From: Parafilimonas sp.
Lineage (GTDB): Bacteria; Bacteroidota; Bacteroidia; Chitinophagales; Chitinophagaceae
NCBI GenBank assembly: GCA_023251275.1
Contig: JAHEZC010000006.1
Coordinates: forward strand, 1-15,363
Direction of reading: 5' to 3'
Length of the DNA: 15,363 bases
A program made the translations under genes and the position numbers. The first letter of the stretch is position 1. Each line of letters begins with the position of its first letter. Shown piece by piece: positions 3,227 through 15,003 of the stretch. The notes below the pieces were generated by a model. That model made no database searches. It was given only the letters and a program-made list of their open reading frames with translations, and was not told the DNA's origin.

Positions 3227-3508
3227 TCAGAGGAATATTGCGCCACCGCCGCAACTGATCCCGCTCAACAGCAATAATGCTGCACCGCTCAGCAGAAATC
3301 CATTTCTCCACTCAGGAGTATTCGTAAAGATGAATATAAATCCAAGAAACAGGTTGATCAACGCACCGCCGAGACAAAGTATTCCGAATAGAAAAGCGAA
3401 CTCACCGGCAAAATCTCCACCATCAGCAATATTGATGAGAAGTGAAATAATGAATGCCAAAACAATATTAATCAAAATGATTTTGTAAGAAAGTTTCAGG
3501 TTACGCAT
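3227..3508 (-). CDS. small three-helix membrane protein, last gene of the rSAM/Lgt-like operon
   Basis: No recognised family. It has 93 residues: a short basic N-terminus (MRNLKLSYK), then three hydrophobic stretches at about 8-27, 36-60 and 69-92, separated by a DGGDFAGEF acidic loop and an NTPEWRNG turn. It resembles the gene just upstream in length, helix spacing and the acidic loop followed by FG, so the two look like diverged tandem paralogues. It starts 19 nt after that gene ends and is convergent with galK. The position implies a membrane function linked to the radical SAM and Lgt-like proteins, but no catalytic motif is visible. It could also be a passenger gene. Confidence 0.72.
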   Translation of the reverse strand: MRNLKLSYKIILINIVLAFIISLLINIADGGDFAGEFAFLFGILCLGGALINLFLGFIFIFTNTPEWRNGFLLSGAALLLLSGISCGGGAIFL

Positions 3509-3527
3509 GTGATAACAAATTTTAGGA

Positions 3528-3800
3528 TTACATCATTCTTAATTTTAGCGGGTAAAGCGTGCAAACACCGGCGCCGATCAGCAGCATAATTCCTGCTGCG
3601 GCAAGAATGCTTAACCCTGTTTCCTTTTGCCGTGCCAGCAGCATAAAGCACCCAACTAATATTCCCAACACTGCTAAAACCAAATTCATTGCTCCAAAGC
3701 CGGTCATAAAATCATGATCGAATGTTCCCTCATTGAAAATGATCGCAACAATAAAGGAAAAGATCAATTGTGCAATTAAAATCAAAAGTATTCTCTTCAT
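3528..3800 (-). CDS. small three-helix membrane protein, translationally coupled to the rSAM gene
   Basis: No recognised family. It has 90 residues with hydrophobic segments at about 2-22, 37-57 and 63-83, joined by an NEGTFDHDF acidic loop and a basic RQKETG loop. Its ATG overlaps the TGA of the radical SAM gene by 4 nt (ATGA), the typical layout for coupled translation and a strong hint that the products act together. The next gene downstream encodes a protein of the same size and topology, so this is probably one half of a tandem duplication. Possible roles are a partner subunit, a lipid-presenting scaffold or an assembly factor, none supported by a motif. Confidence 0.74.
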   Translation of the reverse strand: MKRILLILIAQLIFSFIVAIIFNEGTFDHDFMTGFGAMNLVLAVLGILVGCFMLLARQKETGLSILAAAGIMLLIGAGVCTLYPLKLRMM

Positions 3801-5203
3801 AACAAAATATTTTCTTTTTCTCTCTGCAGTTCCTTCACATGATTTTCTTTCTCATCCCTGTAAAATAAATTCATTGTTTCAAACGGGATGATGCGGCCAT
3901 CCTTGTGCACAATATGCACACAGCTTTTCTTGATGGCACGCACGTCAAAATCATACGCATCAATAAAACGCATGATGATGATGCGGAATAAATTATCATA
4001 GTTCAATCCCGGTGCATGTATTTCCGGCAAACAGCAAAGCAGTTGCTTAAAGTTTTCTTCCACCCTGTCCACAGAAATACCTGTACTGAATATTTTCAGC
4101 AGATGTGCGTGCAACTCAGCATCCTGTTCATACACAATTGTATTGCGGCTGTTATTGAGCAGGTGTGCCGGATCAATATACCGCGTCATTGGAAACACTT
4201 GCCCGGCAAGCTTCAGCGCATAACCCATTACCAATGCATCGGGATTGCAGGGAACCGGGATTAAATCATTTTCGTCGAACACCTTTGTTTGATCCAGTAT
4301 TTTTTGCCGAACATCTGTCATCGTGATACGGTCTGTGGCGGGATTAAAATTTTCCGTTCTTCCTGCAATTTGCGTAGGTTGAAAGGTTACACCCCGCACA
4401 CATTTTTGCTGCAATGCAAAATCTATGATCTTACCAATCTCATCATCATTCAGACCTTTTTGCAGTGTTACTACAAGCGTAGTTGATAAATTCAATTCAT
4501 TCAAATGTTCCAGCGCTTTGATTCTTATATCCGTAAGATCCTTGCCACGTAATTGTTTCAGCACTTCAGGTCTGAATGAATCGAACTGCAGGTAAATTTC
4601 AAAGTCAGGCATGTATGACGCGAGTCTTTCGGCAAATTCAAAATCTTTTGCAATGCGTATTCCGTTTGTATTCACCATTAAATGACGGATAGGTTTTTTC
4701 TTCGCCTTATCGAGTATTTCAAAAAAATGAGGGTGTATGGTAGGTTCTCCGCCGCTTATCTGCACTACATCAGGACTTCCTTCATTTGCAACAATGATCT
4801 CGAGCATTCTTTCCACTTCCTCCAAAGTTCTATGTCTGCCGTAGTGAGGTGAGCTCATCGCATAACAGGTAGGGCAGGTAAGATTACAACGATCTGTTAT
4901 TTCAATAATAGTTAAGCAACTGTGCTGCTCATGGTCGGTACACAGCCCGCAATCATAAGGACAGCCGTAATGACTTTTTGTATTGAATTTCAGCGGTACT
5001 TCTGATGGCTTATTATAATTCCGTATGTTTTTATAATATTCAACGTCAGTTGCGATGAGCACTTTGCTGAAGCCATGCTCTGAACAATTCTTCAGCATAA
5101 AAACATGATTATTTTCAAAGACAATTTTTGCATCAACCCTTCTCAGGCATTCCGGACAGAGGCTAAGTGTAAAATCGTAATAAGTATAAGGACGTTCAGG
5201 CAT
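3797..5203 (-). CDS. multi-cluster radical SAM protein, MJ0619/Tes (tetraether lipid synthase) type
   Basis: 468 residues. The N-terminus carries CPEC (Cys16/Cys19) plus Cys40 and His43, matching a rubredoxin-like or zinc-ribbon site. Next is CPYDCGLC (Cys81/85/88), with Cys96, as an auxiliary cluster site. The radical SAM motif CNLTCPTC (Cys106/110/113) follows, then GGEP at 151-154 for SAM binding. Cys268, Cys319, Cys390/391 and Cys428 are spare ligands. The C-terminal block HKDGRIIPFETMNLFYR resembles the ending of this family. In archaea, MJ0619-type enzymes join lipid tails through C-C bonds to form tetraether lipids; earlier annotation called them pterin methyltransferases. The gene follows the Lgt-like gene by 63 nt and overlaps the next gene by 4 nt. 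Substrate is unknown; membrane-lipid coupling is inference from family and neighbours. Confidence 0.85.
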   Translation of the reverse strand: MPERPYTYYDFTLSLCPECLRRVDAKIVFENNHVFMLKNCSEHGFSKVLIATDVEYYKNIRNYNKPSEVPLKFNTKSHYGCPYDCGLCTDHEQHSCLTIIEITDRCNLTCPTCYAMSSPHYGRHRTLEEVERMLEIIVANEGSPDVVQISGGEPTIHPHFFEILDKAKKKPIRHLMVNTNGIRIAKDFEFAERLASYMPDFEIYLQFDSFRPEVLKQLRGKDLTDIRIKALEHLNELNLSTTLVVTLQKGLNDDEIGKIIDFALQQKCVRGVTFQPTQIAGRTENFNPATDRITMTDVRQKILDQTKVFDENDLIPVPCNPDALVMGYALKLAGQVFPMTRYIDPAHLLNNSRNTIVYEQDAELHAHLLKIFSTGISVDRVEENFKQLLCCLPEIHAPGLNYDNLFRIIIMRFIDAYDFDVRAIKKSCVHIVHKDGRIIPFETMNLFYRDEKENHVKELQREKENILL

Positions 5204-5208
5204 AAGAC

Positions 5209-5234
5209 AGTTTGTGGTTTGTAGTTTGTGGTTT
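5209..5234. repeat. short direct repeat in the leader of the radical SAM gene
   Basis: The 12-mer AGTTTGTGGTTT occurs at 5209-5220 and again at 5223-5234, a 14-bp period, directly upstream of the minus-strand ATG at 5203. Similar TTTGTGGTTTGTAG-type strings are simple low-complexity spacers. A regulatory role is possible but unsupported. Confidence 0.5.
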
Positions 5235-5266
5235 TGGGTTCCTGCTGCAAATAATTAAACATTGCT

Positions 5267-6049
5267 TTACCCAACATTTATTTCTCTCAAATCTAACGTG
5301 TATTTTTTTAATAATAGTTTTGGTTGCATTATAAATCGGGCATACCATATCAGTCCCGCAAGACACGTTAGCTGAATTGTTGATAATCCAATATTGAAAG
5401 TATAATGTGGTTTTATGAAATCAAGTATGAAACGAAACAAACAATAGTTGATCATAAATAGTTTGAATTTTGCCCCGTTTACCAATGTAAGTTTTTTTTC
5501 CAGCCACACGATCAATAACCATAGCAAAATCAAAAAAATAATTTCATACAGTGCGACCGGATGACGCATTTCGACATCACCTAAACGCATTCCCCATGGC
5601 AACTTTGTTGGCAGTCCATAAGTTTCTTCATACACACCCATGCTGAAACAACCAATCCGCCCAATGATAAGCGCCAGCATCATGGGATAAGTAAATAAGT
5701 CTCCTGAAGCATTTTTTTCACGAATAATTTTTTTTACCAGTTCCACACCCATAAGGCCGCCAAGAAATCCGCCAACTACAGTTTTATTCGAATAAAAATA
5801 GTAAAGTGTATTTTCTGCATGAAGCATCGCAGGAGGATTTTCAAGCCCTCCGATCAGGCGGCTCCCGACTAATGCGCCGAATATAGCACCGATAATTATC
5901 CACACCCTGTTCTGTGATGCTATAATATCATGCTGCCTGCTGCGCAGGTACAAAAAATACCTGAAGCCTGCAAAAAAAGCAACCAGCTCCAAAACGCTGT
6001 GCAACAAAACAGCAACACCAAAAATATTTATATGGACAGGATAATGCAA
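5267..6049 (-). CDS. Lgt-like integral membrane protein with altered active site
   Basis: Homologue of prolipoprotein diacylglyceryl transferase (Lgt), 260 residues with about six to seven hydrophobic segments. Recognisable Lgt blocks are VVGGFLGG (91-98), GRIGC...ETYG (130-145), RHPVALYE (162-169) and NYCLFRFILDF (201-211). The Lgt residues Arg143, Gly154, Tyr235 and Arg239 (E. coli numbering) appear kept as Arg131, Gly145, Tyr202 and Arg206. However, the HGG histidine (His103) is Val92, Asn146 is Cys134 and Glu243 is Asp210, so ordinary lipoprotein diacylglycerylation is doubtful. The start is TTG at 6049: no in-frame ATG lies between it and the TAA at 6086-6088, and the next Met is about residue 75, inside the fold. 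It leads the operon with the radical SAM gene. It may handle phospholipid or diacylglycerol for that enzyme (inference). Confidence 0.8.
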   Translation of the reverse strand: MHYPVHINIFGVAVLLHSVLELVAFFAGFRYFLYLRSRQHDIIASQNRVWIIIGAIFGALVGSRLIGGLENPPAMLHAENTLYYFYSNKTVVGGFLGGLMGVELVKKIIREKNASGDLFTYPMMLALIIGRIGCFSMGVYEETYGLPTKLPWGMRLGDVEMRHPVALYEIIFLILLWLLIVWLEKKLTLVNGAKFKLFMINYCLFRFILDFIKPHYTFNIGLSTIQLTCLAGLIWYARFIMQPKLLLKKYTLDLREINVG

Positions 6050-7865: not shown

Positions 7866-10800
7866 CTATGTAGTCTTTATTCTTTCAACAAAATACATAT
7901 CAATCTCGCCTTTATTCTTCGCTTCTACTTTTCCGCGATAAGTGCAGATGAATTTTTCTTTCACTAAATCATAAGTGCTGCCGCTGATGTTTACTTTGCC
8001 GGGTTCCCCGCTGCTTTCCATACGTGAGGCGATATTCACCGCGTCTCCCCAGATATCGTAGGCGAATTTTTTTATTCCAACTATTCCCGCTACCACCGGC
8101 CCGGTATGCAAACCGATCCGTATTTCAAAAAAAGTCTTTCCCTGTGCTGCTCTTCTTTCTTTTTCCAGGATCATAAAATCCCTGATTTCTATGGCTGCCA
8201 TCAGCGTATCTTCCGGATTTGTTTTTTTTTCGACAGGCAATCCTCCTGCGCACATATAACTATCCCCAATGGTTTTTATTTTTTCGATTCCGTACCTGCT
8301 GATAATGTTATCGAAGGCACTGTAACAGAAATTTATTTCGCTTACCAATTCCTGTGCATTCAGATGCTCGCTCATGATGCTGAAGTTCTTGAAGTCTGTG
8401 AACAAAACAGTGACTTCATTAAAATCTTTTGCTTTTGCAGTGCCTGTTTTTTTCAGTTCTTCTGCCGTTTCAGCAGGCAGAATATTCAGCAGCAGACTTT
8501 CAGACCTGTCTTTTTCTTTGCGTAATTCACTAGTTCTTATTTCAACTTTCTCCTCCAATATTTCTTTCTCTTTTCTCAATGCTCCAGTTCTCCACCTAAA
8601 GATTAACACGATACTCATTAATATGATGAATGCATAAATTACATACATCCACCAGGCACGATACCAGGGCGGAAGGACTGTAAATGAATACTGGATGGGT
8701 TTACTCCAAACCCCATCCGGGCTTTGGGCTTTCAGACTAAAAGTATAAGTGCCTTCGTGTATATTACCGAAGGTGGCCGATGTTTTATTTGCAACGGGGC
8801 TCCAGTCATGGTCATATCCTTCCAGTATATATTGGTAGCGGACAAGGAAGCTTTTTCCTGTTTCCAAAGCGGCAAAATCAAAAGTTACATTGTTGTGCTT
8901 AAACGGTAAAACAAGGTTTTCAGGTATTGAATAAAAAGGAGTGATACTATCAAATTTTACATCGCCAAATTTTTTACGCATGGCATCACGCTGAGCTGCC
9001 GTCAAAGCCTTATCAAAAATGATTGCTTCTTCCGTTATGTTTGGAGCTATAGTATTGCTATCGGCTTTCAGCTCCGACCTACCATCTCGTCCGGAAGCGA
9101 GAAGATCATACCAACAAATATTCTCATTATTTATTTTTATACTCTGTATAAAAACATTTGGAGCAGCAGTGTCTTTATGTATTGCGCTGTAATCAAACCT
9201 GACTAATTTTTCTCCTCCTGTACCAATCCAGATCAGGCCTTTTCTGTCAACGTACATAGCGTTGTTGTTGATGTCTTTTACCGGGTAGCCGGTTTTTTGA
9301 TTATAATATTCCAGGCCTTCTTTGGCAAATGATTGCCCGGATGTTCCTAACCCGCCTTTAAGGACAGTAATGCCTAAGTTAGTACCGATGATAATATTAC
9401 CGCTGCTATCCTCAACAACGTCATAAACAATATCATCTGCAAGGCCTTCATTGGTTGTGAAATTTTCAAAAGTCATTTTATTCCCATCTGCAGCATTAGT
9501 TTTCTCATTATTCGCTTCTGGTGCTTCCTGACTGCGATTACGCAACACAGACACGCCTCCGCCATCTGTGCCAAACCAGATGTTTCCTGACTTGTCTTCA
9601 GTGATGCAATAAATAGTGTTGTTGGAAAGACCTTGCACCGTTGTAAAATTGGTAAAAGATTTTCCATCATATCTGCTCACACCTGCACCGGTAGATCCGA
9701 ACCAGAGATTTCCTGCTTTATCTTCAGCGATGCAGGAGACACGATTGTCAACAAGCCCTTGTTTTTTTGTAAAATTGATGAAGGATTTCCCGTCATAACG
9801 ACTCACACCGCCGCCGTCTGTGCCAAACCAAAGATTTCCCTTCTTATCTTCTGTGATACAATAAACCTTATTATTAGAGAGCCCCTGCGCTTCTGTATAA
9901 TTGGTGAAAGATTGCCCGTTATAACGACTTACTCCATCGCCACTTGTGGCGAACCAGAGATTTCCTTTTTTATCTTCAATAATGCCGAAAATAGTATTAT
10001 CGGAGAAACCCTGCGCTGTTGTAAAATTCGTAAAGAATTTTCCATCATATTTACTCACCCCGCGGTCAGTGCCAAACCAGAGATTTCCCTTCTTATCTTC
10101 GGTTATACAATAAACCTTATTATTGGAGAGCCCCTGCGCTGCGGTAAAGCTGACAAAAGATTTTACGTCATAACGGATTACCCCTTCACTATTAGTGCCG
10201 AACCAGAGATTCCCCGCTCTATCTTCTTTGATGCTCCATACTTTATTATCAGAAAATCCTTGTTCTGTTGTAAAATTTGTAAAGGATTTTCCATCATATT
10301 TACTCACCCCGCGATCTGTGCCGAACCAGAGATTTCCTTTTTTATCTTCTGCAATGCTGTAAACATTATCATTAGTAAGGCCCTGCGCCGATGTAAAACT
10401 GGTAAAAGATTTTCCATCGTATTTATTCACCCCTCCGCCATTAGTGCCAAACCAGAGATTTCCTTTTTTATCTTCTGCGATGCACCAAACATAATTGTTA
10501 GAAAGCCCCTGTGCCGTAGTAAAATTGGTAAAGGATTTCCCATTATAGCGGCTTACCCCTCCCACAGTGCCGAACCAGAGATTTCCTTTTTTATCTTCTT
10601 TGATGCTCCATACTTTATTATCAGAGAGCCCCTGTGCGGTAGTAAAATTGGTAAAGGATTTTCCGTCATAACGGCTCACCCCTCCGCCAATAGTAGCGAA
10701 CCAGAGGTTTCCTCTTTTATCTTCCGTGATGCCCCATACATTGTTATTAGAGAGCCCTTGAGTTGTAGTAAAATTGGTAAAGGATTTTCCGTCATAGCGG

Positions 10801-11204
10801 CTCACTCCTCCGCCAACAGTGCCGAACCAGAGATTTCCCTCTTTATCTCTGTAGCCGCAACTGATGCTGCTTAGCGCGAGCCCTTGCTCAGTGTTATAGT
10901 TTTGCATGGTTACAAAAAAATCAGCGGGCTTTTTTTCCGGTGGTGCAAGCTCAATTTCTATGGGCTCGCCTGTTGTTTTAAAGATGTAAGAACCACCGGG
11001 CGTTTCAGGTACGGCAATAGTGCGGGGAGGAGGGCATGTGTCCGGATTGGGTGTGATGGGATTGCCTGCCGTTACAACAACAGGTGGTATTATGCTGTCT
11101 TGTTTTATCAGGGACTCCGGCTGCCCTGTTTTGCCTTGTGAGCATGAGTTTATAAGAAACGCGAAACTTATTAAAAAAAGCAAAAAAGTTAAAAGCTTAG
11201 CCAT
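7866..11204 (-). CDS. propeller/Y_Y_Y transmembrane sensor with class III adenylate cyclase domain
   Basis: 1112 residues. An N-terminal signal ends in LINSC (Cys21, possible lipobox). A Pro-rich linker leads to 11 two-component-regulator propeller repeats, whose N(L/I)WF cores start at residues 124, 166, 208, 249, 291, 332, 374, 415, 457, 499 and 541, plus two degenerate ones near 603 and 657. A Y_Y_Y beta-sandwich spans about 765-845, one TM helix about 848-868, a charged coiled coil about 873-905, then a class III cyclase domain about 925-1090. Metal Asp937 (LFTDF) and Asp981 (GDSYM) are present. Lys977 and Asp1050 (YDIWG) specify adenine; Asn1057 and Arg1061 complete the site. It should therefore sense a periplasmic ligand and make cAMP in the cytoplasm. 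Propeller/Y_Y_Y sensors more often carry histidine kinase outputs. The ligand is unknown. Confidence 0.93.
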   Translation of the reverse strand: MAKLLTFLLFLISFAFLINSCSQGKTGQPESLIKQDSIIPPVVVTAGNPITPNPDTCPPPRTIAVPETPGGSYIFKTTGEPIEIELAPPEKKPADFFVTMQNYNTEQGLALSSISCGYRDKEGNLWFGTVGGGVSRYDGKSFTNFTTTQGLSNNNVWGITEDKRGNLWFATIGGGVSRYDGKSFTNFTTAQGLSDNKVWSIKEDKKGNLWFGTVGGVSRYNGKSFTNFTTAQGLSNNYVWCIAEDKKGNLWFGTNGGGVNKYDGKSFTSFTSAQGLTNDNVYSIAEDKKGNLWFGTDRGVSKYDGKSFTNFTTEQGFSDNKVWSIKEDRAGNLWFGTNSEGVIRYDVKSFVSFTAAQGLSNNKVYCITEDKKGNLWFGTDRGVSKYDGKFFTNFTTAQGFSDNTIFGIIEDKKGNLWFATSGDGVSRYNGQSFTNYTEAQGLSNNKVYCITEDKKGNLWFGTDGGGVSRYDGKSFINFTKKQGLVDNRVSCIAEDKAGNLWFGSTGAGVSRYDGKSFTNFTTVQGLSNNTIYCITEDKSGNIWFGTDGGGVSVLRNRSQEAPEANNEKTNAADGNKMTFENFTTNEGLADDIVYDVVEDSSGNIIIGTNLGITVLKGGLGTSGQSFAKEGLEYYNQKTGYPVKDINNNAMYVDRKGLIWIGTGGEKLVRFDYSAIHKDTAAPNVFIQSIKINNENICWYDLLASGRDGRSELKADSNTIAPNITEEAIIFDKALTAAQRDAMRKKFGDVKFDSITPFYSIPENLVLPFKHNNVTFDFAALETGKSFLVRYQYILEGYDHDWSPVANKTSATFGNIHEGTYTFSLKAQSPDGVWSKPIQYSFTVLPPWYRAWWMYVIYAFIILMSIVLIFRWRTGALRKEKEILEEKVEIRTSELRKEKDRSESLLLNILPAETAEELKKTGTAKAKDFNEVTVLFTDFKNFSIMSEHLNAQELVSEINFCYSAFDNIISRYGIEKIKTIGDSYMCAGGLPVEKKTNPEDTLMAAIEIRDFMILEKERRAAQGKTFFEIRIGLHTGPVVAGIVGIKKFAYDIWGDAVNIASRMESSGEPGKVNISGSTYDLVKEKFICTYRGKVEAKNKGEIDMYFVERIKTT
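9540..10847 (-). repeat. tandem ~126-bp repeats encoding propeller blades
   Basis: Eleven direct repeats with a period of 123 or 126 bp (41 or 42 codons) lie inside the cyclase-sensor gene. The unit encodes a blade of the pattern EDKKGNLWFGT-GG-VSRYDGKSF followed by TNFT-AQGLSNN. Several units are nearly identical at the DNA level, notably the two coding for FGTDRGVSKYDGK, which suggests recent duplication or gene conversion. The array is liable to copy-number change and to assembly collapse. Confidence 0.9.
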
Positions 11205-12505: not shown

Positions 12506-12922
12506 ATGGCAGATGTGCATAACAAAGAAATAAGAAGTTATAATATGAGCAGGATCCGTTCAAAAAATACGCAGCCGGAGATCCAGCTCAGAAGGGTTCT
12601 TCACGCAAATGGTTTTCGATTCAGATTGCATTACAAAGATTTACCGGGCAGCCCGGATATTGTACTGCCAAAATATCGCACAGTAATTTTTGTACACGGT
12701 TGTTTCTGGCATAATCACAAAAATTGCAGATTCGCAAAATTTCCAGCGACGAACAAAACCTATTGGACACCCAAGCTTTTAAACAACATTAAACGTGACG
12801 ATAAAAACCGCTTGGCTTTAAAAAAGGCAGGGTGGAAAGTAATAAGAATATGGACATGCAGGTTAAAGCCATTTTATTTTAATAAAACAGTTTCTGTATT
12901 ACTTAAAAAGTTGTGCATATAA
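12506..12922 (+). CDS. vsr: very short patch repair endonuclease (Vsr)
   Basis: Nicks next to T:G mismatches produced by deamination of 5-methylcytosine, which starts short-patch repair. 138 residues, the normal size. The N-terminus has MSRIRSKNTQPE with Glu25. Asp51 (SPDIVL) and His64/His69 (VHGCFWH) form the metal and catalytic site. The structural zinc ligands are likely Cys66, His71, Cys74 and Cys118 (IWTC). Vsr genes travel with cytosine-5 methyltransferases, and one follows 73 nt downstream. This supports m5C chemistry for the module. The ATG at 12506 gives the typical family start. Confidence 0.94.
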   Translation: MADVHNKEIRSYNMSRIRSKNTQPEIQLRRVLHANGFRFRLHYKDLPGSPDIVLPKYRTVIFVHGCFWHNHKNCRFAKFPATNKTYWTPKLLNNIKRDDKNRLALKKAGWKVIRIWTCRLKPFYFNKTVSVLLKKLCI

Positions 12923-12995
12923 TATTGTTTGTGGATAATATATTCTGTATTGACATTCAGGTTTTACGTATTTTTATAAATAAAGTTTTACAGCA

Positions 12996-13559
12996 ATGGA
13001 GTATGTGAATTTTATTAGTGAAACGCTTATCCCGAGAATAACAGAAAAAGAAATTGTACTGGATTTATTTGCGGGCTGCGGGGGACTTTCATTAGGCTTT
13101 GAAGCTGCAGGCTATAAAACTATTGGTTATGAAATGGAGCCGAATGCCGCAGAAACTTACAGACAAAACCTTAACGGTAACTGCACTACTGTAAAGCTTG
13201 ACACATTTTTTAATTATCCTGATGCCCAAATAATAATTGGCGGTCCGCCATGCCAGCCTTTCAGTGTTGGCGGTCACCAGTTAGGAATGAAAGATGCAAG
13301 AGATGGTTTCCCGATTTTCATTGATGCTGTAAGAAAACTGAAACCCAAAGTTTTTATGTTTGAAAATGTGAGGGGGCTTTTGTACACTAATAAATGGTAT
13401 TTTGAATTAATAGTAGAAGAACTGAAAAGACTTGGCTATATGGTTGATTATCGCTTATTGAATGCTGTTCACTTCGGAGTCCCGCAAAACAGGGAAAGGC
13501 TTTTTGTGATCGGTCATAAATCGCAATTTCAATTCCCGATAAGGGAAAAAATAAAATAA
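12996..13559 (+). CDS. DNA cytosine-5 methyltransferase, N-terminal part (frameshifted)
   Basis: First 187 codons of a type II m5C methyltransferase that transfers methyl from SAM to C5 of a target cytosine. Motif I DLFAGCGGLSLGF binds SAM (about residues 23-35). The motif IV loop GGPPCQPFS has catalytic Cys86, motif VI FENVRG has Glu113, and motif VIII VPQNRERLFVIG is complete. The frame stops at TAA 13557 just after motif VIII. The rest, including target recognition, motif IX and motif X, continues in the -1 frame, so this ORF alone cannot be active. It lies after vsr and before a BsuBI/PstI-family endonuclease. Joined with the downstream part, it gives 337 residues, a normal length for a small m5C enzyme. 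Confidence 0.9.
   Translation: MEYVNFISETLIPRITEKEIVLDLFAGCGGLSLGFEAAGYKTIGYEMEPNAAETYRQNLNGNCTTVKLDTFFNYPDAQIIIGGPPCQPFSVGGHQLGMKDARDGFPIFIDAVRKLKPKVFMFENVRGLLYTNKWYFELIVEELKRLGYMVDYRLLNAVHFGVPQNRERLFVIGHKSQFQFPIREKIK
13546..13551 (+). other. A6 run at the frameshift point of the methyltransferase
   Basis: Reading GAA AAA ATA AAA TAA ends the gene. Slipping back one base in the A6 run gives GAA AAA AAT AAA ATA ACT, which continues as N-K-I-T-A-G-E-A-I-K-D-L into the downstream frame without a stop. Adding one A gives exactly 338 codons including the stop. The string is not a canonical X XXY YYZ slippery heptamer. Confidence 0.82.
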
Positions 13560-14008
13560 CTGCGGGGGAAGCTATTAAAGATTTAATGTACACTATCCCT
13601 CCTGAAAGTAAATTCCTGACAAGCGCACAAGACATTTATATAGCCAAATACGAAAAAGCTTCTGAATGTATAAATCCACGGGATTTATACACTGATAAAC
13701 CTGCAAGAACATTAACCTGCCGAAATCTTGCTGCAGCGACAGGCGATATGCAAAGGATAAAATTACAAGATGGCAGACGAAGGCGTTTATTAATTCGTGA
13801 GGCCGCAAGACTTCAGTCATTTCCCGACTGGTTCAAATTTTCAGGTAATGAAACAAGCCAGTTTTATCAAATAGGCAATGCAGTTCCGCCTTTATTAGCT
13901 TACCAGCTTGCACAGTCTGTAAAAAAATGCTATAAGACACCGGGCAAACTTTTGTCGCTGAATGAATACAAATCTTTACCTGTAAACCAAAAGATTGCTT
14001 TGTTTTGA
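13560..14008 (+). CDS. DNA cytosine-5 methyltransferase, C-terminal part (frameshifted)
   Basis: Continuation of the methyltransferase in the -1 frame. No stop interrupts the path from the A6 run, reading TAGEAIKDLMYTIPPESKF. An ATG at 13586 could start an isolated 140-residue fragment, but it sits in the middle of the domain and is not a natural start. It carries a short target-recognition region, motif IX (DKPARTLTCRN) and motif X (QIGNAVPPLLAYQLAQ), which closes the SAM pocket. The TGA stop at 14006-14008 overlaps the endonuclease ATG by one base (TGATG), indicating coupled translation of methyltransferase and endonuclease. Codon use and A/T richness match the first half, so both come from one gene. 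Confidence 0.88.
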
Positions 14009-15003
14009 TGAAAACCTATTTAACAAATTCAAATAAAACCCCGCAAACCCAAAAGCTTATAAACCAGGGGCTGGATATTTTAGAAAGTGTCGGAATTCCC
14101 TTTGAAAATAAAACAACTAAAGGGTTGCAAAGTATGGCAATGTGTTTCCTGGCAGTGGCGGTGGTTTTTAAATCGTGGAAACAGGCTAAAGGGCAAAACG
14201 AAAATCGCCACTTAAAAACAAGAGATATTATCAAGTTTATTAATGAGCATTACGAAGAAAATATTTCTCCTGGTTCTTATGACGATATTAGGCGTAAGCA
14301 TTTAAAATTGTTAGTACTTGGAGAATTAATATTAAATAGCGCAGACAACCCAAGCGCATCTACTAATGATCCTACGAGAGGATACACGCTAAAATCAGAT
14401 TTCGGGAACTTAATCATTTATTACAATACCAGTGAATGGGAAATTAAACTTAAATTATTTTTAAAAAATCAAAAACCTTTATCTGAACTGCTCGCAAGAA
14501 ACAGGGCAATTATTAAATTGCCTGTTACTCTTCCCGGAAATATTGAAATAAAATTGTCGCAAGGCGGACACAATGAACTGCAAAGAGAAGTTATTGAAGA
14601 GTTTTTACCGCGCTTCGGACTTGGATGCGAAGTATTATATATTGGCGATACAAGCAAAAAAATATTGCATTATGAAGAAGATAAGCTGAAAACATTGGCC
14701 TTCTTTAAGCTTTCACATGATGATTTGCCCGATATAATTGCCTATAATGCCGAGAAAAATTGGTTATATCTTATTGAAGCTGTTTTCAGCTCATGTCCAA
14801 TGAGTGAACAAAGAGTTTTGGAATTAAAAAAGGCATTACAGAATTGCTCAGCAGAATTAATTTTTGTTACTGTCTTTACTTCAAGGAATGATTTCAAAAA
14901 ATATTTAACAGAAATAGCTTGGGAAACAGAAGTTTGGACAGCTGACAACCCTGATCATCTGATTCACTTTAATGGAGAAAAGTTTTTAGGACCTTATGTT
15001 TGA
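14008..15003 (+). CDS. BsuBI/PstI-family type II restriction endonuclease
   Basis: 331 residues from the ATG at 14008. A TTG at 14005 is also open, but the TGATG overlap with the methyltransferase stop favours ATG. The N-terminal part (about 1-160) has an alpha-rich DNA-recognition-like domain with THKGL/KSW-type and RGYTL segments. The C-terminal part fits the family nuclease core: LPDIIAYN (Asp242), then [16 protein letters not shown] (Glu257), [14 protein letters not shown], the strongly conserved [20 protein letters not shown], and a terminal FLGPY. It is open and full length, with no sign of decay. BsuBI and PstI cut CTGCAG but are paired with adenine methyltransferases; here the partner is a cytosine enzyme, so the recognition sequence may differ. 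Confidence 0.9.
   Translation: [331 protein letters not shown]

Follow-up and report, generated by a model that had tools for sequence, protein, structure and literature searches.

A conserved trio of a diverged Lgt-fold protein, a Tes-like radical SAM protein and small membrane proteins with a C-terminal cysteine in Bacteroidota

The archaeal radical S-adenosylmethionine (radical SAM, rSAM) enzyme Tes, the tetraether lipid synthase also called GDGT-MAS, is described (PMC9433317) as a protein that binds phospholipids and couples their tails, with a rubredoxin site (C9-X2-C12-X20-C33-X2-H36), an N-terminal cluster held by C73, C77, C80 and a His, and a radical SAM (RS) cluster motif CX3CX2C. 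In its C-terminal region, MJ0619 carries C338, C438, C455, C456 and C470, together with M439 and Y459, two residues that all archaeal homologues share. Two further papers (PMC8941075, PMC11868695) discuss whether Tes homologues of bacteria might produce membrane-spanning lipids, and the membrane-spanning lipid synthase Mss, which is linked to bacterial iso-diabolic acid lipids, is described in another as sharing the Tes catalytic architecture (PMC13274423). TrsS is a further rSAM family, of radical SAM (seleno)proteins, with which small selenoproteins, including an ‘LULAxC motif’ protein, have been listed (PMC13188914). For the prolipoprotein diacylglyceryl transferase Lgt, the roles of its arginines have been described (PMC4728403). 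Here we describe a locus in a 15,363-nucleotide (nt) stretch of a Parafilimonas sp. contig (JAHEZC010000006.1, hereafter the window), in which an Lgt-like protein and a Tes-like rSAM protein are encoded together with two small membrane proteins that each carry a Cys near the C-terminus.

A first-pass annotation had described four co-directional genes here, the last three tightly packed with one ATGA overlap, and including two tiny membrane proteins. All four open reading frames (ORFs) are present on the minus strand at the positions given there, and the two last encode small hydrophobic proteins of 90 and 93 amino acids (aa):

5267..6049, minus strand: Lgt-like integral membrane protein, 260 aa, TTG start, PF01790 fold
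3797..5203, minus strand: rSAM protein, 468 aa, Tes fold
3797..3800, minus strand: ATGA overlap formed by the rSAM stop and the start of small protein 1
3528..3800, minus strand: small membrane protein 1, 90 aa, C-terminal end LLIGAGVC(80)-TLYPLKLRMM, candidate substrate
3227..3508, minus strand: small membrane protein 2, 93 aa, C-terminal end LLLLSGISC(86)-GGGAIFL, candidate substrate

The rSAM and small protein 1 genes share the ATGA at 3800-3797, which likely reflects translational coupling, 19 nt separate the two small genes, and the gap between the Lgt-like and rSAM genes is 63 nt. Pfam analysis matched the rSAM protein to PF04055 (107 bits) and PF23545 (69.5 bits) and the Lgt-like protein to PF01790 (76.9 bits), and matched neither small protein to any family. 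The source genome (3.3 Mb in 645 contigs) is 83% complete, and the closest named relative of the rSAM protein, in a search that may omit very near records, is from Foetidibacter luteolus (Chitinophagaceae), with 87% identity.

The first-pass annotation had proposed a search for conserved linkage of the two enzyme genes, and this linkage is strongly conserved. Among 147 genomes of relatives (E-value thresholds 1e-20 for rSAM and 1e-15 for Lgt-like), rSAM was found in 15 and Lgt-like in 17; all 15 rSAM genomes carry the Lgt-like gene, compared with 2 of the 132 others, namely G031 (35% identity) and G046 (a fragment). In a phylum-wide sample of 395 genomes (1e-30 and 1e-40), rSAM matches occurred in 34, two of which (G207 and G434) are Tes proteins; 31 of the remaining 32 genomes also have the Lgt-like gene, against 1 of 363 others. 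The sole exception, G236, has a weaker Lgt-like match (3e-19) beside its rSAM gene, and the only genome in this sample with the Lgt-like subfamily and no rSAM is again G031. At a relaxed threshold of 1e-12, the Lgt-like profile matched 60 phylum genomes, but the 28 outside the 32 of the subfamily score 4.8e-22 or weaker and, G236 excepted, were taken as other Lgt proteins. Fisher P values for co-occurrence were 1e-18 and 9e-44, values that ignore common descent.

Gene order tells the same story. Across 80 named Bacteroidota loci, the Lgt-like gene is present in 75 and was not found in five (one of which is cut by a contig end); it lies directly upstream of the rSAM gene, on the same strand and within 600 nt, in 70 loci and elsewhere in the locus in five. 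Because of these frequencies, the pairing of the two enzymes goes beyond chance. A gap of at most 20 nt or an overlap is seen in 52 of the 70 adjacent pairs, and the pairing persists where the genes are separated, either by 23 kb (G054) or on different contigs (G062, G177 and G406). One Lgt-like frame (G007:C32:813814-814563) is interrupted by a single in-frame TAA, through sequencing error or decay, in a locus where the rSAM frame is open and a small-protein match follows behind it.

The small genes were collected by walking downstream of the rSAM gene in 121 loci (the 80 named loci, 40 further loci and the window) and taking hydrophobic ORFs of 45-130 aa in the same chain, which yielded 180 ORFs. 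A motif defined strictly as G-x-[SGAT]-x-C close to the C-terminus occurs in 116 of these, compared with a mean of 4.4 and a maximum of 11 in 200 shuffles; of 130 other hydrophobic ORFs taken from these loci as controls, 4 have it. An overlap filter against longer ORFs then discarded 26, among them some that bear the motif (L014, L026, L063 and L081), and left 154 in 101 loci. A C-terminal Cys is present in 144 of the 154, and all ten without it come from loci that also hold a Cys-bearing copy. The usual setting is G-[FL]-[SG]-x-C-[SG]: among the 144 proteins, position -4 is G in 111 and S in 24, -3 is mostly F or L, -2 is mostly S, G or T, and +1 is mostly S, G or T (S or G in 97). The tail counted from the Cys itself is 2-20 residues long, and 41 of the 144 proteins end in His, frequently as ...NFH or ...NMH.

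Since a small ORF with a C-terminal Cys follows the rSAM gene in 72 of the 80 named loci, these genes are no accident of the window genome. Two to four tandem copies are carried by 39 of the 101 loci, and in an alignment of 20 small proteins (17-42% identity to the first row) the Cys is the only invariant column. In L025, for example, the rSAM protein is 86% identical to that of the window while the small proteins are 42% and 60% identical. Both the tandem copies and the fast-changing body fit a substrate role. A profile of the small proteins matched 14 of the 147 relatives; 12 of these are rSAM genomes, in which the match always lies right behind the rSAM gene. Pfam analysis of 20 small proteins gave scattered weak matches only (best E 0.0036; Bax1-I in two members, all others in one each), and an NCBIfam scan gave one member per match, the best being the toxin model PepG1 (E 3e-4).

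For topology, the Cys-bearing proteins were divided into two classes at 72 aa, with this boundary and the helix counts set by us. In the short class (52 proteins, two helices), the N-terminus is neutral or negative in 49 of 52, and Lys plus Arg average 3.4 in the loop that leads into the last helix and 0.23 in the stretch behind the Cys. In the long class (92 proteins, three helices), the averages are 1.8 for both the N-terminus and the loop and 0.34 for the tail. By the positive-inside rule, the last helix is predicted to run N-in in both classes, with the Cys at its extracytoplasmic (periplasmic) end. Together with the S or G that commonly comes next, this predicted layout is that of a lipoprotein signal peptide.

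The Lgt-like protein has the Lgt fold (PF01790; PDB 5azb) and keeps the counterparts of E. coli Lgt R143, R239 and Y235 as R131, R206 and Y202. Its catalytic Arg pair R131/R206 is kept in 109 of 109 homologues (one fragment of 110 was dropped), and H17, E21, E103 and K106 are invariant in homologues of the Bacteroidota type, E103 and K106 in all 109. It nevertheless scores below all NCBIfam Lgt equivalog cut-offs (46.9 against 334, 38.3 against 118.9 and 30.7 against 636 bits).

The rSAM protein was first annotated as a Tes-type enzyme with at least three Cys sites. These sites are all present: a rubredoxin-like site (C16-P-E-C19, C40 and H43), an N-terminal cluster (C81-P-Y-D-C-G-L-C88, hence C81, C85 and C88, with H91 assigned by us as the completing His) and the RS cluster (C106-N-L-T-C-P-T-C113, hence C106, C110 and C113). 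The proposed structural comparison with archaeal Tes (MJ0619, PDB 7tol/7tom) revealed a shared overall fold in which the rubredoxin, N-terminal and RS sites are matched. The Tes-type label therefore stands for the fold and three of the four metal sites, but not for the C-terminal cluster region, which has been rebuilt. There, the window protein has an altered Cys set (C319, C390, C391 and C428), and only C456 (C428) and M439 (M411) of MJ0619 are matched; A323, I410, S427 and E442 occupy the other Cys positions and Ile replaces Y459. About 20 residues next to Tes Cys338 are missing, and the C-terminal part is shorter.

Membership of the Tes family itself (NCBIfam NF045702) was rejected, with 291.5 bits against a cut-off of 450 and a best stretch of residues 12-320, and both the C-terminal residues and phylogeny argue in the same direction. 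In a tree, the window protein did not group with the Tes rows: 15 of these fall on one side of a 100/100 branch and the window with the other 44 rows on the other, in a midpoint-rooted tree for which the program warns that two long branches meet. Two Tes proteins do occur in the phylum sample, where that of G207 (locus L168) scores 493.5-493.8 bits and that of G434 (L169) falls just under the cut-off at 441.6 bits. Neither locus has an Lgt-like match or a small Cys protein among its listed neighbours, and neither genome has an Lgt-like match at 1e-12. These two Tes proteins are candidates for membrane-spanning lipid synthesis in the wider phylum. PF23545, the N-terminal rSAM domain, matched only three archaea among 14 control genomes.

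The best full-length profile match of the window rSAM protein is to TrsS (NCBIfam NF045646; 323.4 bits over profile positions 3-436 of 441). TrsS membership was also rejected, given a cut-off of 490 that 0 of the 395 phylum genomes pass. In two TrsS-like plasmid loci (L197 and L199; 335 and 338 bits, likewise below cut-off) the rSAM gene is followed by a DVU_1556-type methyltransferase gene (136 and 132 bits; cut-off 155), and no Lgt-like match lies in the fetched stretch. No such methyltransferase gene is found among the neighbours of the window rSAM gene; this neighbour feature is taken from the two loci and not from a published definition of TrsS. The two plasmids are from Mycolicibacterium, near CcdA and disulfide oxidoreductase genes, and from the haloarchaeon Salinirubellus, near peroxiredoxin genes.

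Chitinophaga rupis DSM 21039 (L049) is one laboratory strain with the trio, which extends beyond the order and phylum of the window. In L166 and L167, the rSAM protein is 37-39% identical to that of the window, and the proteins that match these two at 98% and 100%, P0121 and P0125, carry the names Chlorobiales and Chlorobaculum; in these loci and in L170, the gene after the Lgt-like one encodes a small protein with the ending ...LLFGAC... or ...IFGSC.... In L174, a small protein ending ...SGGMC... lies between the two enzyme genes, and Persicobacter psychrovividus has all three components with overlapping genes. In Actinomycetota, Mycobacterium branderi encodes an Lgt family protein, then two small proteins with ...SGGLCTGLNP... 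and ...TVGVCTGLNP... (no family matched in a Pfam scan of the two), then an rSAM protein. Its Lgt-like protein is 28% identical to that of the window and does not keep E103, and the annotation of this trio carries only the labels ‘radical SAM protein’ and ‘prolipoprotein diacylglyceryl transferase family protein’. In Nonomuraea, the Lgt-like gene adjoins the rSAM gene and the preceding ORF ends ...SAGICTGINP.... MSMEG_5408, a second Lgt homologue of M. smegmatis for which Y26H and N146C are reported (PMC13251419), may belong to the same Lgt-like subfamily.

The two enzyme genes and the small genes form a module, as shown by its composition, the co-occurrence of its parts, the conserved Cys, the retained metal-site and lipid-site residues and the predicted topology. 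Our tentative explanation, to which we assign a probability of about 0.4, is that the locus encodes a three-component modification module of a diverged Lgt-fold transferase, a Tes-like rSAM enzyme and dedicated mini membrane proteins as substrates, with the transferase acting on a periplasmic Cys and the rSAM enzyme on a lipid. For the chemistry, the substrate role, the lipid and the step order, we infer the following scheme. The helix and Cys of the mini proteins would be recognised by the Lgt-fold enzyme, which would transfer a lipid group to the Cys thiol; its relative in E. coli, Lgt, modifies a Cys of this kind from the periplasmic face. The rSAM enzyme is presumably located in the cytosol and is similar to one that removes H from the tails of lipids; it might supply or finish the lipid by forming a C-C or C-S bond on the tail, before or after transfer. 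The product would be a multi-pass mini protein with a lipid-modified C-terminal Cys rather than a classical N-terminal lipoprotein. The identity of the lipid and the position of the rSAM step before or after transfer are the least certain parts of this scheme.

A number of observations count against this explanation. In a canonical lipobox, position -1 is G, A or S and the Cys lies at the end of an N-terminal signal peptide, whereas here -1 is V, T, I or L in 114 of 144 proteins and the Cys begins a tail of only 2-20 residues. The presumed cytosolic rSAM enzyme and the periplasmic Cys lie on opposite faces of the membrane, so that a shared lipid must be assumed. In L165, the rSAM protein is 73% identical to that of the window with neither partner nearby, the Lgt-like gene being on another contig of the same genome. 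No kept Cys ORF lies directly downstream in 20 of the 121 loci (8 of the 80 named and 12 of the 40 further loci). The eight comprise one contig end (L083), three filter losses (L026, L063 and L081) and four loci with none (L079, L088, L091 and L094); among the twelve, L014 is a filter loss, and longer flanks for five (L162-L164, L166 and L170) revealed a small gene beside the Lgt gene, as also in a sixth, L167. Among the 147 relatives, the rSAM genomes G066, G110 and G126 gave no match to the small-protein profile, and G023 and G038, which lack rSAM, gave weak ones.

The active site of the Lgt-like protein weighs in the same direction. An aliphatic residue (V, L, M, A or I) replaces the essential His103 of E. 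coli Lgt (HGGL) in 109 of 109 homologues, with [HYW]GG there in 0 of 109; His (H17) also stands for the essential Tyr26, and Glu (E21) for Tyr30, two matches read by eye from two ungapped sequence alignments. Given the replaced His103 and the His for Tyr26, the protein may not carry out classical diacylglyceryl transfer. The loss of His103 was nonetheless not accepted as proving the enzyme inactive, because authentic Lgt proteins differ at this position, some having Y, W or F (PMC13251419), and because the N146C change is also found in the separate 387-aa Lgt-family ORF of the window genome, which has FYGGL.

The lipid-centred proposal of the first-pass annotation is borne out in part: it retains its conserved Lgt-like/rSAM pair and the Tes fold, but the rSAM protein is not a Tes and the Cys of the small proteins goes unexplained. 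Stated in full, the rSAM enzyme would couple or alter phospholipid acyl tails (for example, converting iso-C15 chains into membrane-spanning or branched lipids), the Lgt-like protein would present phosphatidylglycerol or move lipids, and the small proteins would be accessory subunits of a lipid-remodelling complex. We consider this unlikely: although the closest structural relative is Tes, a phospholipid-binding tail coupler (PMC9433317), and the lipid-site arginines are kept in the Lgt-like protein, the rSAM protein scores below the Tes cut-off, falls outside the Tes clade and lacks both Tyr459 and the roughly 20 residues beside Cys338, and the near-constant Cys is left without a role. Archaeal-type lipids in Bacteroidota were likewise rejected as an explanation, as a GGGPS/PcrB-family gene (PF01884, an archaeal-type ether lipid enzyme family) is near-universal, occurring in 139 of the 147 relatives, including 14 of the 15 module genomes; it therefore carries no signal for the module and does not track with it.

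Another alternative places the chemistry on the small protein itself, as in ribosomally synthesised and post-translationally modified peptides (RiPPs), where small, tandem, fast-evolving proteins are usually encoded beside an rSAM enzyme with auxiliary clusters. The rSAM enzyme would then modify the small protein, perhaps by crosslinking it at the Cys through a thioether or C-C bond, with the Lgt-like protein as a lipid-binding membrane partner or chaperone without transfer activity. The gene layout here resembles that arrangement, the next-closest structures to the rSAM protein include those of the RiPP maturases SkfB and SuiB, and the replaced His103 would suit a protein without transfer activity. 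SkfB and SuiB systems share the small encoded proteins beside the rSAM gene, but here these are membrane proteins of two to three helices with the conserved residue at the predicted outer face, accompanied by an Lgt-fold enzyme. We regard RiPP-like maturation as improbable. Still less probable, and in our view very doubtful, is that the few residues behind the Cys are cleaved from the protein and set free as a lipopeptide signal or bacteriocin. Secreted peptides typically come in variable, tandemly repeated copies, the tails are short and variable, including the 41 that end in His, and 30 of the 80 named loci contain an oppositely oriented M23-type peptidase gene (for example L039, 7967-8671). 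In the remaining 50 loci as fetched, however, that gene is missing, and a gene that resembles leucyl-tRNA synthetase on inspection by eye is a similarly common neighbour, with 23 of the 80 loci; both therefore look like shared gene order, which probably accounts for the peptidase. No exporter family is a constant neighbour among the clustered ORFs of the named loci. An anti-phage defence role was rejected, since the only link is a generic rSAM similarity to viperin (51 bits), no other defence family being matched. The type I toxin model PepG1 is matched weakly by one of 20 small proteins.

The genes flanking the locus run the opposite way, with GH130, aldose epimerase and galactokinase genes on one side and deoC on the other. 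They are not conserved neighbours, as the sole match among the 80 named loci is a GH130 gene in L044, on the opposite strand. Promoter-like sites in the window do not exceed shuffles (6 against 10.7), and for terminator-like sites (5 against 2.4) no conclusion was drawn. Further along the window, 7866-11204 encodes a one-piece sensor cyclase of 1112 aa, in which propeller repeats of the two-component type are combined with a Y_Y_Y domain and, at the C-terminus, a guanylate/adenylate cyclase domain. A restriction-modification set at 12506-15003 consists of a Vsr-type endonuclease, a C5 cytosine methyltransferase and a BsuBI/PstI-type endonuclease; the methyltransferase is split in two (12996-13559 and 13586-14008) with profile positions 167-268 unmatched between the parts, and looks broken or misassembled.

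No account of the trio was found in the open-access literature, which is weak evidence of absence as most subscription papers and bioRxiv fell outside this scope, and the available sections of two papers on Bacteroidetes and tetraether lipids (PMC8941075, PMC11868695) do not mention it. Each enzyme family is known, and what seems new is the trio as a system; should TrsS and its co-listed small selenoproteins (PMC13188914) turn out to work alike, the trio would become a variant of that kind. The gene set points to a so far undescribed means of attaching a lipid, or some other group, to very small membrane proteins. That it represents, in full, an undescribed protein-lipidation pathway, in which a lipid remodelled by a Tes-like rSAM enzyme is put by an Lgt-fold transferase on a C-terminal extracytoplasmic Cys in Bacteroidota, Chlorobi-type bacteria and Actinomycetota alike, is a more doubtful proposition.

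If the three-component explanation is true, it would be a second route of protein lipidation in bacteria, one in which the Cys that accepts the lipid sits close to the C-terminal end of a small helical protein, and a group of bacterial Tes homologues would gain a function. It would also be a warning against calling every bacterial Tes-homologue gene a branched glycerol dialkyl glycerol tetraether (brGDGT) gene. Even if the chemistry is different, the module offers a clear candidate substrate, a single Cys, for this pair of enzymes.

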